Shown here in pieces: positions 8,726 to 60,250 of a stretch of 64,000 nt of DNA (position 1 is the stretch's first letter; each line of letters starts with the position of its first letter). The DNA is taken from NCBI RefSeq assembly GCF_003075525.1, contig NZ_QDDR01000001.1, forward strand, positions 496,001 to 560,000, given 5' to 3'. The DNA comes from Pararhodobacter aggregans (lineage in GTDB: Bacteria; Pseudomonadota; Alphaproteobacteria; Rhodobacterales; Rhodobacteraceae). The notes beneath the pieces are model-generated. The model was not told where the DNA came from. It did not search any database and saw only the letters and a list, made by a program, of their open reading frames with translations. The translations under genes and the position numbers were made by a program.

Positions 8726-9487
8726 ATGCAGATCGAGGGAATATCGGCGCTGGTCACCGGCGCGGGCTCGGGCCTCGGCGAGGCGACGGCGCGGATGCTG
8801 GCGGCGCGGGGCGCGAAAGTCTGCGTGCTGGACCGCGACGCCGGGAAGGGCAGGGCGGTGGCCGAAGCCATCGGCGGGATCGCCGCGGCCGGGGACGTGA
8901 CCTCCGAGGGCGACGTGAACGCCGCGCTCGACGCGGCGGGGGCGGCGCATGGCGTGCCGCGGATCGTGGTGAATTGCGCCGGCATCGGTACGGCGGGCCG
9001 GGTGCTGGGCCGCGAGGGGCCGCTGGCGCTGGAGGTCTTCCAGCGCACCATCACCGTCAATCTGGTGGGCAGTTTCAACGTGCTGCGGCTTGCCTCGGCG
9101 CGGATGGCCACGGCCGACCCGCTGGAGGATGGCGAGCGCGGCGTGGTGATCAACACCGCCTCGGTCGCGGCCTGGGACGGCCAGATCGGCCAGGCCGCCT
9201 ATGCGGCATCGAAGGGCGGGATCGTGGCCATGTCGCTGCCCATCGCCCGTGAACTGGCGCGGGTCGGCGTCCGGGTCAACGTGATCGCGCCGGGGATCTT
9301 CCTGACGCCCTTGCTCTACACCCTGCCCGAGGAGGCGCAGAAGGCGCTCGCCGCCGACATCCCCTTCCCGCAGCGGCTGGGCGATCCGGCGGAATTCGCC
9401 GATGCGGTTTGCTTCATGGCCACCAACCGCTACGTCAACGGCGAATGCCTGCGTCTGGACGGCTCGGTCCGGCTGAAGGCGAAATGA
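8726..9487 (+). CDS. short-chain dehydrogenase (3-hydroxyacyl-CoA dehydrogenase type II-like)
   Basis: A 253-residue classical SDR. It has the nucleotide motif TGAGSGLG (11-18), NCAG, and the catalytic Ser146 / Tyr159 / Lys163 set (YAASK). The aspartate in VLDRD after the second strand indicates NAD preference. It resembles the HSD17B10-type 3-hydroxyacyl-CoA dehydrogenases in length and layout. It starts three bases after the CoA synthetase stop. In the beta-oxidative hydroxycinnamate route an SDR oxidises the 3-hydroxy-3-aryl-propionyl-CoA to the beta-keto thioester, which fits this position. The exact substrate is inferred. Confidence 0.82.
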   Translation: MQIEGISALVTGAGSGLGEATARMLAARGAKVCVLDRDAGKGRAVAEAIGGIAAAGDVTSEGDVNAALDAAGAAHGVPRIVVNCAGIGTAGRVLGREGPLALEVFQRTITVNLVGSFNVLRLASARMATADPLEDGERGVVINTASVAAWDGQIGQAAYAASKGGIVAMSLPIARELARVGVRVNVIAPGIFLTPLLYTLPEEAQKALAADIPFPQRLGDPAEFADAVCFMATNRYVNGECLRLDGSVRLKAK

Positions 9488-9520: not shown

Positions 9521-9541
9521 GGGAGGGTTTTCCACCCTCCC
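9521..9541 (+). terminator. hairpin terminator after the fcs-SDR operon
   Basis: A perfect 8-bp inverted repeat, GGGAGGGT and ACCCTCCC, with a 5-base loop, 33 bases after the SDR stop. There is no long T-run, which is common in GC-rich alphaproteobacteria. Confidence 0.6.
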
Positions 9542-9573
9542 CCAGCCGCGCCACGGGCGCGGCCTTCTCGGCT

Positions 9574-9596
9574 GAAACGTGCCACTGGCACGTTTC
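9574..9596. repeat. perfect 10-bp inverted repeat with a 3-base loop
   Basis: GAAACGTGCC (9574-9583) and GGCACGTTTC (9587-9596) pair perfectly around ACT, and flanking CTCG/CGAG can extend the stem after a 3-base bulge. It lies between the terminator at 9521 and the long three-hairpin element. Function unknown; it could be a second terminator or a processing site. Confidence 0.55.
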
Positions 9597-9613
9597 CGAG
9601 ACGCCGATCACCC

Positions 9614-9736
9614 ACCCGGAGGATATTTAGGGAACAAAGATGCGCGGTTAAGAGGTCCTTAACGCCCCATCTTCGTTCTGCAAATATCCTCGGGGGTGAA
9701 TTCGGCGTAGCCGAAGAGGGGGCAGAAGGCCCCCTC
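9614..9736. repeat. three-hairpin intergenic element, copy 1
   Basis: Hairpin A is long and nested. Its outer arms CACCCGGAGGATATTT and AAATATCCTCGGGGGTG (9682-9698) enclose GAACAAAGATG/CATCTTCGTTC, which encloses GTTAAG/CTTAAC. Hairpin B is TTCGGC-GTA-GCCGAA (9701-9715). Hairpin C is GAGGGGGC/GCCCCCTC (9716-9736). The same three-part layout recurs at 49884-50009. It occupies most of the 331-base gap between the SDR gene and the GntR gene; I see no gene in that gap. Confidence 0.75.
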
Positions 9737-19727: not shown

Positions 19728-19788
19728 TTCAAGGGGGGAGCAGGCTCCCCCCTTGAAAATCCCCCCTGCGTATTTGGAGCAGAATGAA
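19728..19788. repeat. 13-bp hairpin followed by the GTATTTGGRGCAGAATGAA repeat (copy 1)
   Basis: TTCAAGGGGGGAG (19728-19740) and CTCCCCCCTTGAA (19745-19757) form a perfect 13-bp stem with a 4-base loop. Ten bases on, at 19768-19788, comes the short sequence GTATTTGGAGCAGAATGAA, preceded by GC. The same short sequence recurs at 42479-42500 and, with changes, at 60230-60250. The rest of the gap up to 19874 shows no gene. Confidence 0.65.
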
Positions 19789-42452: not shown

Positions 42453-42500
42453 CCGGGGGTTTCACCCCCGGACCCCCAGCGTATTTGGGGCAGAATGAAA
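42453..42500 (-). repeat. cbbL-cbbS intercistronic hairpin plus dispersed repeat (copy 2)
   Basis: CCGGGGGT (42453-42460) and ACCCCCGG (42464-42471) form an 8-bp stem with a 3-base loop. Adjacent, at 42479-42500, lies GTATTTGGGGCAGAATGAAA preceded by GC, nearly identical to the sequence at 19768. Being inside the operon, the hairpin will be in the cbbLS transcript and could affect the ratio or stability of the two messages. Confidence 0.65.
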
Positions 42501-49217: not shown

Positions 49218-49288
49218 GTTCAGTTTTGATTGAACGCAGATAGGAATATGGGGTAGGCCCGTCAAGAAGCGTTCAGTCTTGAATGACG
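49218..49288. promoter_or_regulatory. two operator-like repeats in the efflux/regulator divergent promoter
   Basis: GTTCAGTTTTGATTGAAC (49218-49235) and GTTCAGTCTTGAATGACG (49271-49288) match at 14 of the first 16 positions and start 53 bases apart, about five helical turns. The first is also an imperfect palindrome (GTTCA and TGAAC). They flank the middle of the 151-base gap and are the probable binding sites of the adjacent regulator. Confidence 0.6.
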
Positions 49289-49329
49289 TATTGTGCCCGC
49301 CAAGACTAGCATGGTTCACGGAAGAGATC

Positions 49330-49788
49330 ATGACCCCGCCGATTTCCCGCACCCGCGCCGATTTCATCGCCTATATGGGCCAGGCACTCGAGGCGAAAGG
49401 CCTGTCGCCGATCGCCGGGCGGATGCTGGGTCTCCTGATCTTCGACGGGGCGCCGCGCTCGTTCAGCGACCTGGCGACGGAGCTCGGGGTCAGCCGCGGC
49501 TCGATCAGCGCCAATGCCCGCCACCTGCTGGCCCGCGGCGCCATCGTCAAGCAGAACCGCCCCGGCGACCGGCAGGATTACTTCTGCGTGGCCGAACAAT
49601 CCCTGGACCAGATCCTGACCGAGCTGATCGCCCGGATGACGGAAACCTCGGAGGCGGTGCGCGGCTTTGCCGAAGCGCTGCCGTCTGACGAAGGCGCCCG
49701 GCGTCGGCTTTGCGGGCTGGCCGATTTCTACGCGGCGATGGCCGGGGGGGTGACCCAGGCCCTGCAGCGGCTGGGCATGAGGCGCTGA
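49330..49788 (+). CDS. GbsR/MarR-type transcriptional regulator of the efflux operon
   Basis: A 152-residue winged-helix protein of the GbsR-like MarR branch. The lead GQALEAKGLSPIAGRMLGLLIF is followed by the HTH SFSDLATELGVSRGSISANARHLLARGAIVKQNRPGDRQDYFCVAE, then a helical dimer domain. It is divergent from the RND adaptor gene, with a pair of repeats between them. The start at 49330 is chosen because the longer frame passes through one of those repeats. It probably represses the pump. Confidence 0.82.
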   Translation: MTPPISRTRADFIAYMGQALEAKGLSPIAGRMLGLLIFDGAPRSFSDLATELGVSRGSISANARHLLARGAIVKQNRPGDRQDYFCVAEQSLDQILTELIARMTETSEAVRGFAEALPSDEGARRRLCGLADFYAAMAGGVTQALQRLGMRR

Positions 49789-49883
49789 AGCGGCGGGAGG
49801 CACGCTCCCACCCGCCCACCCCGCGCGCCTCCCGCCGCGGAGAGGTCAGCGCGCGTGGAAGCCCCGGGGGGCCATCCCCCCGG

Positions 49884-50009
49884 ACCCCCCGGGATATTTC
49901 AGGAACAAAGATGAATATTAAGGGGGCGTTAAGCCGCCTTCTTTGCGCTTCAAATATCCTCGGGGGGTGAATTGGCCGCAGGCCAAGAGGGGGGCAGACG
50001 GCCCCCCTC
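49884..50009. repeat. three-hairpin intergenic element, copy 2
   Basis: Hairpin A has arms ACCCCCCGGGATATTT and AAATATCCTCGGGGGGT (49952-49968) around GAACAAAGATG-like and TTAAG-containing inner sequence. Hairpin B is TTGGCC-GCA-GGCCAA (49972-49986). Hairpin C is GAGGGGGGC/GCCCCCCTC (49987-50009). It matches the element at 9614-9736, with paired changes that keep the stems. It fills most of the 302-base gap between the regulator and the mutase gene. I see no gene in that gap. Confidence 0.75.
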
Positions 50010-50090
50010 CTTCGGCGCCGCGGAACGCGGCGCCGCCGGTCGCCCGAGGCGCTCGTGCCGGAGGCGCGGGCAACGAGGGCGAAACCCCTC

Positions 50091-52064
50091 CTATTCCGCG
50101 GCGACCGGCCGGGCTTCGACCAGGCCTACGATATCCATCATGATCCGGTTCAGCTCGAAATCCTTGGGGGTATAGACGGCGGCCACGCCCATGGCGCGCA
50201 GGGCGATCGCGTCTTCCTCGGGGATGATCCCGCCGACGACCACCGGCACGTCCGACAGCCCCGCGGCCTGCATCCGTTCCATCACCTCGGCCACCAGCGG
50301 CACATGGCTGCCCGACAGGATCGACAGGCCGACCACATGCGCCGCTTCCGCCTCGGCGGCCGAGACGATTTCGGCGGGGGTCAGGCGGATGCCCTCGTAA
50401 TGGATGTCCATGCCGCAATCGCGGGCCCGCGCCGCGATCTGTTCGGCGCCGTTGGAATGCCCGTCGAGGCCGGGCTTGCCGACCACGAATTTCAGCTTGC
50501 GGCCCAGCTGGCTGCTGACCGCATCGACCGCGGCGCGGATCTCCTCCAGCCCCTCGGTGCGGTTCGAGGGGTTGCGGCTGACGCCGGTCGGCGCGCGGTA
50601 TTCGCCGAAAGCCTTGCGCACGACAAGGCCCCATTCGCCGGTCGTGGCCCCGGCCTTCGCCGCCTTGATCGAGGCCGGCATGACATTGGCGCCCGACAGC
50701 GCCGCCTCGCGCAGCTCGGCCAGCGCGGCCTTGACCGCGGCCTCATTGCGGGCGCCGCGCCAGGCGGTCAGGCGGGCGATCTGGTCGGCCTCGGCATCGG
50801 CATCCGCGACCATGATCGAGCCGTCGCCGGTGGTGAGCGGCGAGGGTTCGGTCGTGGTGAAGCGGTTGACGCCCACCACCACCGTCTCGCCCTGTTCGAT
50901 GCGGCCGATGCGTTCGGCATTGGCCTCGACCAGACGGCCCTTCATGTAATCGATGGCCTGCACCGCGCCGCCCATGTCGTCAATGAGCGCCAGTTCGGCC
51001 CGGGCGCCCTGTTTCAGCGCCTCGACCTTGGCTGCGACCACCGGGTTGCCGTCGAAAAGGTCGCCGTATTCCAGGAGATCCGTCTCATAGGCCAGGATCT
51101 GCTGCATGCGGAGCGACCATTGCTGGTCCCATTTGCGGGGCAGGCCCAGCGCCTCGTTCCAGGCGGGCAATTGCACGGCGCGGGCGCGGGCGTTCTTCGA
51201 CAGGGTGACGGCCAGCGCCTCGATCAGGATGCGGTAGACGTTGTTTTCCGGCTGCTGCTCGGTCAGGCCCAGGCTGTTGACCTGCACGCCATAGCGGAAG
51301 CGGCGGTAGCGCGCGTCCTCGACGCCGTAGCGTTCCAGACAGATCTCGTCCCAGAGTTCCGAGAAGGCGCGCATCTTGCACAGTTCGGTGACGAAGCGGA
51401 TGCCGGCGTTCACGAAGAAGGAAATGCGCCCGACCATCTCGGGGAAATGCTGCGCCGGCACCTTGCCCTTCAGGTCATCCAGCACCGCGATGGCCGTGGC
51501 CAGCGCGAAGGCCAGCTCCTGCTCGGGCGTCGCGCCCGCTTCCTGCAGATGGTAGGAACAGACGTTCATCGGGTTCCACTTCGGCAGATGCTCGCGGGTA
51601 TAGGCCGCGACATCGGTAATCATCCGCAGCGAGGGTTTCGGCGGGCAGATATAGGTCCCGCGCGAGAGGTATTCCTTGATGAGGTCGTTCTGCACCGTGC
51701 CCTGAAGCTGGGTGACATCGGCGCCCTGTTCCTCGGCCACGGCGATATAGAGCGCCAGCAGCCAGGGCGCCGTCGCGTTGATCGTCATCGAGGTGTTCAT
51801 CTGCTCCAGCGGGATCTGGTCGAAGAGCGCCCGCATGTCGCCGATATGGCAGATGGGCACGCCGACCTTGCCCACCTCGCCCCGCGACAGTTCGTGGTCG
51901 CTGTCATAGCCGGTCTGGGTCGGCAGGTCGAAGGCGACCGAGAGGCCCGTCTGACCCTTGGACAGGTTGGTCCGGTACAGCTCGTTCGAGGCCTTGGCGG
52001 TGGAATGGCCGGCATAGGTGCGGAAGAGCCAGGGCTTGTCTTTCTTGACGGTGTCTTGGGTCAT
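50091..52064 (-). CDS. ecm: ethylmalonyl-CoA mutase (B12-dependent)
   Basis: A 657-residue acyl-CoA mutase. The N-terminal catalytic barrel (RTYAGHSTAKASNELYRTNLSKGQTGLSVAFDLPTQTGYDSD) is followed by a C-terminal cobalamin domain with the DxHxxG motif in KPGLDGHSNGAEQ at about residues 525-535. This single-chain layout and length mark the MeaA/Ecm branch, distinct from methylmalonyl-CoA mutase. It converts ethylmalonyl-CoA to methylsuccinyl-CoA in the ethylmalonyl-CoA pathway for growth on acetate-level carbon, such as the acetyl-CoA released by hydroxycinnamate breakdown. It has its own promoter. Confidence 0.92.
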   Translation of the reverse strand: MTQDTVKKDKPWLFRTYAGHSTAKASNELYRTNLSKGQTGLSVAFDLPTQTGYDSDHELSRGEVGKVGVPICHIGDMRALFDQIPLEQMNTSMTINATAPWLLALYIAVAEEQGADVTQLQGTVQNDLIKEYLSRGTYICPPKPSLRMITDVAAYTREHLPKWNPMNVCSYHLQEAGATPEQELAFALATAIAVLDDLKGKVPAQHFPEMVGRISFFVNAGIRFVTELCKMRAFSELWDEICLERYGVEDARYRRFRYGVQVNSLGLTEQQPENNVYRILIEALAVTLSKNARARAVQLPAWNEALGLPRKWDQQWSLRMQQILAYETDLLEYGDLFDGNPVVAAKVEALKQGARAELALIDDMGGAVQAIDYMKGRLVEANAERIGRIEQGETVVVGVNRFTTTEPSPLTTGDGSIMVADADAEADQIARLTAWRGARNEAAVKAALAELREAALSGANVMPASIKAAKAGATTGEWGLVVRKAFGEYRAPTGVSRNPSNRTEGLEEIRAAVDAVSSQLGRKLKFVVGKPGLDGHSNGAEQIAARARDCGMDIHYEGIRLTPAEIVSAAEAEAAHVVGLSILSGSHVPLVAEVMERMQAAGLSDVPVVVGGIIPEEDAIALRAMGVAAVYTPKDFELNRIMMDIVGLVEARPVAAE

Positions 52065-60229: not shown

Positions 60230-60250
60230 GCGTATTTTCGGCAGAATGAA
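60230..60250. repeat. dispersed repeat copy 3 after rpsD
   Basis: GCGTATTTTCGGCAGAATGA (plus a final A) differs from the copies at 19768 and 42479 only in the three bases before GCAGAATGAA. It lies between the rpsD terminator and hisC, in a gap of 188 bases that shows no gene. Confidence 0.6.

Follow-up and report, generated by a model that had tools for sequence, protein, structure and literature searches.

A candidate REP/BIME-like mosaic of hairpin modules at gene 3' ends in Rhodobacterales

Introduction

RIME and other rhizobial mosaics are intergenic, palindromic repeats of alphaproteobacteria, and in Streptococcus pneumoniae, a member of another phylum, the BOX elements are modular hairpin repeats made of other modules, which we liken to the element considered here by description only. 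The closest described counterparts are the REP/BIME repeats of E. coli, Pseudomonas and Stenotrophomonas, characterized in the available text of two reports as high-copy, extragenic, palindromic mosaics that carry complementary changes (PMC2817692, PMC3733652), features that the present element appears to share. According to the same text, REP DNA repeats show complementary variation within their palindromes (PMC2817692), and REPs of the CGTC type are reported without a dedicated transposase (PMC3733652).

The element was found in a stretch of 64,000 nucleotides from the genome of Pararhodobacter aggregans (contig NZ_QDDR01000001.1, positions 496,001 to 560,000), the window in the following, in which a preliminary description had pointed out two intergenic copies of an arrangement of three hairpins, A, B and C. 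We give about even chances to the explanation that these belong to a dispersed, non-coding mosaic element of Rhodobacterales, composed of REP/BIME-like hairpin modules with short conserved links at gene 3' ends. Unlike REP/BIME, the element comprises several longer modules per copy and a conserved directional tail, and the gaps that hold it stay filled between close relatives while the modules change. No GTAG or CGTC head was seen by eye beside hairpin B in alignment A2 (64 sequences), where most rows carry GTGA and a few carry other letters. With the rhizobial mosaics the comparison is one of range: the covariance model R1 described below is almost absent outside the own family in a sample of the class.

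A search of the 64-kb window yielded no match to a known Rfam family above the gathering score, and at E values up to 1 copy 2 gave three matches of 17.7-18.5 bits against cut-offs of 38-218. No description of this repeat, by name or by strings of its sequence, was found in the open-access literature, and no such element is named in the available text of papers on R. sphaeroides RNase E and PNPase, on sRNAs of Paracoccus and Ruegeria, and on RepRanger; a family of gene-end repeats with swappable hairpins is apparently undescribed.

Architecture of the unit

The two copies, at 9614-9736 and 49884-50009, are both present and can be aligned over these coordinates, and the observation of three hairpins is right, but it is part of something larger. 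As element limits these coordinates do not hold, as more hairpins lie outside: on the 5' side at 9521-9541 and 9544-9611 for copy 1 and at 49791-49845 and 49864-49883 for copy 2, and on the 3' side, for copy 2 only, hairpin D and then a structured stretch up to the stop at 50091. The gap of copy 1 has a short-chain dehydrogenase gene on one side and a GntR/FCD regulator on the other, and that of copy 2 a MarR-family gene and then a methylmalonyl-CoA-mutase-family gene that runs toward the copy (both by Pfam). The features in the window are the following.

8726-9487, short-chain dehydrogenase gene, with its stop codon 5' of the hairpin at 9521-9541.
9521-9541, + strand, copy 1, left unit, GGGAGGG/CCCTCCC hairpin (sequence; also at the orthologous site in the related genomes G016 and G017).
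9544-9611, + strand, copy 1, extra two-hairpin module, CCGCGCC-ACG-GGCGCGG type and ACGTGCC/GGCACGT (not at this site in G016 and G017).
9621-9642, + strand, copy 1, left tail GGATATTT-NNN-GAACAAAGATG, the 5' arm of hairpin A (sequence, tail comparison).
9668-9689, - strand, copy 1, right tail in the reverse direction, the 3' arm of hairpin A (sequence, tail comparison).
9701-9715, + strand, copy 1, hairpin B, TTCGGC-GTA-GCCGAA, with a GNA loop (alignment, covariation, loop parse).
9716-9736, + strand, copy 1, hairpin C, GAGGGGGC/GCCCCCTC (sequence, covariation).
19768-19787, + strand, single unit with the second tail type, GCGTATTT-NNN-GCAGAATGA, preceded by two hairpins (pattern scan).
42479-42498, + strand, single unit with the second tail type (pattern scan).
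49279-49788, MarR-family gene, left neighbour of copy 2.
49791-49845, + strand, copy 2, left unit, outer module CGGCGGGAGGC...GCCTCCCGCCG, immediately 3' of the MarR-family gene stop.
49864-49883, + strand, copy 2, left unit hairpin CCGGGGGG/CCCCCCGG (sequence).
49892-49913, + strand, copy 2, left tail GGATATTT-NNN-GAACAAAGATG (sequence, tail comparison).
49938-49959, - strand, copy 2, right tail in the GCGCAAAGAAG version (sequence, tail comparison).
49972-49986, + strand, copy 2, hairpin B, TTGGCC-GCA-GGCCAA, with a GNA loop (alignment, covariation, loop parse).
49987-50009, + strand, copy 2, hairpin C, GAGGGGGGC/GCCCCCCTC (sequence, covariation).
50014-50034, + strand, copy 2, hairpin D, GGCGCCGCG-GAA-CGCGGCGCC, with a GNA loop; more structured sequence follows up to the stop codon at 50091-50093.
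50091-52064, reverse strand, mutase-family gene, right neighbour of copy 2.
60230-60249, + strand, single unit with the second tail type and a GC-rich hairpin upstream (pattern scan).

A directional unit consists of GC-rich hairpins followed by CCCCC and a tail, which is either GGATATTT-NNN-GAACAAAGATG or GCGTATTT-NNN-GCAGAATGA, and the three-hairpin element is two such units joined tail to tail. Its constant portion is the right half, AAATATCC-(TC)-GGGGGTGAA with hairpins B and C. Because this right half, read on the other strand, is a directional unit ending in GGATATTT-NNN-GAACAAAGATG, hairpin A, which had been taken for one nested hairpin of about 85 bases, is two copies of one directional tail placed face to face. 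Among 38 copies of the own genome (2 rows were skipped by the parser) the left and right 11-nt tails of the same copy share 340 of 418 positions, compared to a mean of 342.8 after shuffling (p 0.81). Tails from one copy thus resemble each other no better than tails taken from different copies. The left and right arms of hairpin A change independently of one another, and hairpin A as a co-varying helix was set aside. In related genera the 5' arm is absent in most of the copies seen; by a simple test it is present in 19 of 99 family copies. For the second tail type, TATTT-NNN-GCAGAATGA, 39 of 40 genome matches (TATTT..CARAATGA) have identical spacing and a reversed control pattern gave 0, with three matches inside the window, at 19768, 42479 and 60230.

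Outside the three hairpins the array continues. Hairpin A is preceded by 5' hairpins of several types, and many copies have two further hairpins, D and E, on the 3' side of hairpin C, E being the one next after D. The two-hairpin module seen at 9544-9611 (loops ACG and ACT) also precedes some other copies of the own genome.

Copy number and taxonomic range

A BLAST search of the P. aggregans genome (5.08 Mb in 32 contigs) with copy 1 returned 74 match rows, many of which are both strands of one self-complementary copy; the window and 37 fetched stretches together hold 48 non-overlapping copies as counted by script, 40 full and 8 partial, and an exact right-half pattern has 57 matches in the genome and none in its control. 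R1, a covariance model of the right half built from 64 sequences, gave 146 matches from 150 scored, 71 of which reach at least 50 bits; matches below that score may represent other modules or units of the left-hand side. Since copies recur in the BLAST rows, in the script count, in the exact matches over their control and in the R1 search, chance resemblance is excluded. Set beside the copy number usual for REP/BIME, above 100 and mostly extragenic, the counts are 146 by R1, 71 at the higher score, 57 by exact pattern and 40 by the second tail. The outcomes that the preliminary description named as refuting it, a lack of further copies or poor covariation, did not occur: further copies exist, and, as detailed below, covariation is above that of shuffled alignments.

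Of the genomes sampled across the order, 133 of 149 have R1 matches, as do 66 of the 72 genera represented, with at most 36 candidates scored per genome. In a sample of the class 8 of 192 genomes have a match, namely two of the three from the own family and 6 of the 189 others, these six with a single match each of 22-37 bits. The element is nearly restricted to Rhodobacterales. Scanning named genomes with the exact pattern found at least 108 stretches, and the titles among the matches listed are those of Rhodobacterales genera, e.g., Paracoccus, Rhodobacter, Gemmobacter, Ruegeria, Leisingera and Pararhodobacter, except for one Novosphingobium contig, one Sphingomonadales MAG and MAGs named only to class or phylum. 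The two titles outside Rhodobacterales belong to stretches L133 (Novosphingobium sp. MW5) and L116 (the Sphingomonadales MAG); L133 closely resembles copies L154 and L155 of Pararhodobacter zhoushanensis, and its contig is possibly mislabelled or foreign.

Among 50,697 phage records there was no match, and spread by phages was set aside. Spread by mobile plasmids was set aside as well, as 18 of 72,556 plasmid records match and all are predicted to be non-mobilizable. No annotated feature lies under 16 of these plasmid matches, whose gene tables are incomplete, and the remaining 2 records come without a gene table. The plasmid matches stem from six genera, of which two were looked up and are Rhodobacterales; the other four we take to be Rhodobacterales too.

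Placement at gene 3' ends

Where do the units lie with respect to genes? From 111 pattern matches in the family, 99 copies were used for this question, the 12 near locus ends being omitted, and genes were called with a simple ORF caller. The gaps are of the type >< in 36 cases, << in 32, >> in 21 and <> in 10, and in 68 of the 99 the right-hand gene is oncoming, its stop codon lying a median of 10.5 nt away from hairpin C. For comparison, the other gaps of these loci with a length of 60 nt or more were used. Convergent orientation occurs in 34 of 83 gaps with the element and in 42 of 286 without it, an enrichment (Fisher p 9e-7), and divergent orientation in 7 of 83 and 77 of 286, respectively, a depletion (p 3e-4). 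The 40 full copies of the own genome are distributed as << 17, >< 13, >> 6 and <> 4. The units are placed at gene 3' ends. Their orientation is not strict: of the 99 family copies, 21 occupy >> gaps and run antisense to the genes on either side, and another 10 lie between divergent genes.

This placement would also be expected of an RNA element of 3' untranslated regions or of a terminator, whose hairpins work in RNA by ending or protecting mRNAs, an explanation that we regard as possible but rather unlikely. Transcripts coming from the abutting gene would contain the hairpins first and then the AU-rich TATTT as a site for RNase E, and in the other direction hairpin C would stop transcripts before the gene. 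Stop-codon proximity and the enrichment in convergent gaps agree with such a role, and by analogy TATTT could be an RNase E site in a transcript: in R. sphaeroides, according to the available text of one report, AU is enriched around about 7,000 of 23,000 clustered RNase E sites, but just some 2% of the RNase E sites fall into 3' UTRs (PMC6238624). As to termination, 97 of 106 family copies have a T immediately 3' of hairpin C, yet the 8 nt that follow the hairpin contain a mean of only 2.8 T. Intrinsic terminators between convergent genes resemble the element in having GC-rich hairpins 3' of stop codons; they differ in that the window copies have no T-tract by the scan and in that the sequence of the element is kept across the order. 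With no intrinsic-terminator-like scan site at either window copy and no T-rich tract after the hairpin, a simple intrinsic terminator was set aside.

Placement bears likewise on the idea that the tail is a recognition word with genus dialects, that is, a sequence of the DNA-uptake type for transformation or gene transfer agents. A short directional tail with fixed spacing and dialects, as in the 39 of 40 second-tail matches with one spacing and the empty control, is what such a word might look like. However, of 14 tail matches in the window and a further 400 kb chosen by position (5 of the 14 come from the window), 13 are outside called genes, and a reversed control has 1 match in the same DNA. 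DNA uptake sequences commonly occur inside genes too, and on the extragenic placement of the tails we set this highly improbable explanation aside.

Pairing and loops of the hairpins

Between the window copies the two-pair change on both arms of hairpin B, TTCGGC-GTA-GCCGAA to TTGGCC-GCA-GGCCAA, is as originally noticed, and hairpin C keeps its pairing in both copies. In 64 right halves all 6 pairs of hairpin B show two-sided changes and 97.8% of the cells are paired, so that complementary changes within a palindrome, as used to recognize REP/BIME, are found in this hairpin. The covariation score of the whole structure is 0.181 compared to 0.058 for shuffled data, none of 500 shuffles reaches 0.181, and a control in which partners are slid attains at most 0.070. 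The core of hairpin C has no two-sided change in any of its 7 pairs, and its two outer pairs are paired in 83.0%, one of them with a two-sided change in 2 sequences. The claim of selection on pairing over sequence is therefore supported for hairpin B and not supported for the core of hairpin C and the tail arms of hairpin A. Counted as a test of which strand folds, mismatches of the G.T kind outnumber those of the A.C kind by 57 to 10, but a single terminal pair supplies 36 of the 57, and this count was set aside.

That selection acts specifically on RNA structure, as the preliminary description went on to propose, does not follow from this, as replacement of whole hairpins and strand-specific loops of DNA type offer another account. 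Covariation alone is not proof of RNA, because whole-hairpin swaps and REP DNA repeats give the same variation. If hairpins are exchanged whole, both arms change together, which would explain much of the apparently compensatory variation.

The stems of hairpin B are diverse: parsing gave 15 different strings, of which the parser had shortened a few. Read on the forward strand, its loop is GNA or GNNA in 47 of 61 copies of the alignment set and 83 of 107 of the family set, and on the reverse strand in 0 of 61 and 0 of 107; the parse failed for 3 of 64 and 4 of 111 copies, respectively, and the search pattern of the family set fixes part of the hairpin B stem but leaves the loop free. Among other short-loop hairpins in the same DNA, counted on either strand, such loops make up 53 of 570 and 105 of 839. 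They recur in hairpin D, in 31 of 41 copies and often with a G-C closing pair, and in hairpin E, in 25 of the 28 copies that could be parsed out of 37 found, and the 5' hairpins and the module of 9544-9611 have them on neither strand.

As far as the available text of two sources goes, GNA and GNNA mini-hairpins of DNA are extraordinarily stable (PMC4686876), and the GNNA loop is described as the DNA counterpart of the GNRA loop of RNA (PMC8373063, which cites a 2002 selection study). In hairpin E the third loop base is always C or T; of the 25 GNNA loops that the family set has in hairpin B, 18 carry C or T there and 7 a purine (GCAA and GCGA, which fit the RNA rule). This preponderance of C and T over the purine of GNRA speaks against the RNA explanation. 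The loops look more DNA-like than RNA-like, and a GNA/GNNA rule that is confined to one strand weakens the RNA reading, as the GNRA rule of RNA fits poorly. GNA loops may be compatible with RNA as well, and part of the loop pattern, in which GCA and GTCA dominate, may be shared through descent.

Orthologous gaps and probable exchange of modules

Gaps were called orthologous if both flanks could be aligned. In the closest relative examined, G016, all 11 orthologous gaps are occupied, one of them without the right unit; 6 of the 11 were chosen with the G016 copy already known, and the 5 reached from own copies alone are all occupied. The comparison started from 58 own rows, some copies being included twice, of which 44 have no orthologous pair in the DNA compared. 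Every one of the 11 gaps differs from G016 in at least one class of hairpin module, by class labels that are coarse (for copy 1 hairpin D received a wrong score, but the gap of this copy differs anyway by the extra module), and the type of hairpin B has changed at 7 of the 11. From the module types in the two genomes we infer that modules are exchanged.

At the site of copy 1, between the dehydrogenase and GntR genes, G016 lacks the module at 9544-9611 and otherwise has the same array, and in the array of G017 hairpin B reads TTCGCT/AGCGAA; the module, absent from both, would have been gained in the own lineage. G006 and G015 carry one unit only, and G009 has hairpins but is the one of six genomes without a tail at the dehydrogenase site. 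The 3' end of the mutase gene has at least one unit in 10 of 16 genus genomes, the own included, and none in the other 6 (G001, G004, G007, G008, G011 and G014), with left-hand neighbours compared in part. Taken together, these alignments suggest a picture in which gene-end gaps remain filled among close relatives as hairpins swap, with gain and loss further out.

It could also be imagined that the element is non-autonomous and mobile, a MITE or a REP mobilised by RAYT that still transposes as a unit, and its high copy number, the likeness of copies within a genome, e.g., in Sinirhodobacter populi, the inverted arms of two-unit copies and the one site that lacks a unit in 6 of 16 genus genomes would be in line with this. 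Such mobility nevertheless seems improbable, as none of the 11 orthologous gaps is empty in the closest relative and the left arm is missing from most family copies by the simple test given above. The inverted tails are restricted to two-unit copies, and with 0 of 11 gaps empty there is no gap from which target duplications could be read. Moreover, the RAYT domain Y1_Tnp (PF01797) has no match in the own genome and is present in 2 of 15 same-genus genomes, the own counted among the 15. A REP driven by RAYT was set aside on the missing PF01797 match in the own genome.

Possible mode of action and implications

For the mosaic of REP/BIME-like modules at gene ends, the following mechanism can be envisaged. 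The unit would act in the form of a folded strand, in that B, D and E would all fold on the same strand of the DNA whenever it becomes single-stranded, as during replication, in transcription bubbles or in imported DNA. Whole modules would be replaced by recombination between copies at their common links, and copies would be kept 3' of stop codons, where a hairpin may be harmless or useful. In the simplest case its use would be that of a structured mRNA end or of a barrier to transcription entering the neighbouring gene, and an effect on transcript ends is predicted as likely.

The bacteria concerned carry gene transfer agents. In a more far-reaching and on the whole unlikely version, gene ends throughout the group would bear a system of hairpins formed in single-stranded DNA. 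One strand would have several highly stable GNA/GNNA hairpins, and these would serve as interchangeable cassettes, copied from one gene-end site to another by recombination at short common links and without RAYT. The copying could be driven by a putative single-strand-recognising enzyme, or by import of single-stranded DNA in carriers of gene transfer agents.

The order to which the model genera Rhodobacter, Paracoccus and Ruegeria belong has the element in 133 of 149 sampled genomes. If the element shaped mRNA ends or blocked antisense transcription, each genome would have dozens of genes affected by it. Furthermore, hairpins that are swapped whole mimic RNA covariation, which is a warning for the interpretation of such patterns, and gaps that stay filled while their cassettes change would open concerted evolution of DNA hairpins to test.

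Observations at individual copies

In place of hairpin B a longer alternative module (GGTGAGGGC-TGCCCGGACGAGGCGCC and similar) is seen in the G016 copies L245 and L303 and in the own copy L315. One orthologous gap, occupied by the own copy L314 (near C1:596304) and by L302 of G016, contains a conserved stretch between facing tails (CGGTACAGGC...GATGACCG), for which an Rfam search gave no match. It is seemingly inverted between L314 and L302, as if by recombination of the facing tails, and the long copies L019 and L021 have an internal stretch that resembles it. In L302 the right tail and hairpins B and C that L314 possesses are gone, and the join, at a common CTTCTT, looks like a short-repeat deletion.
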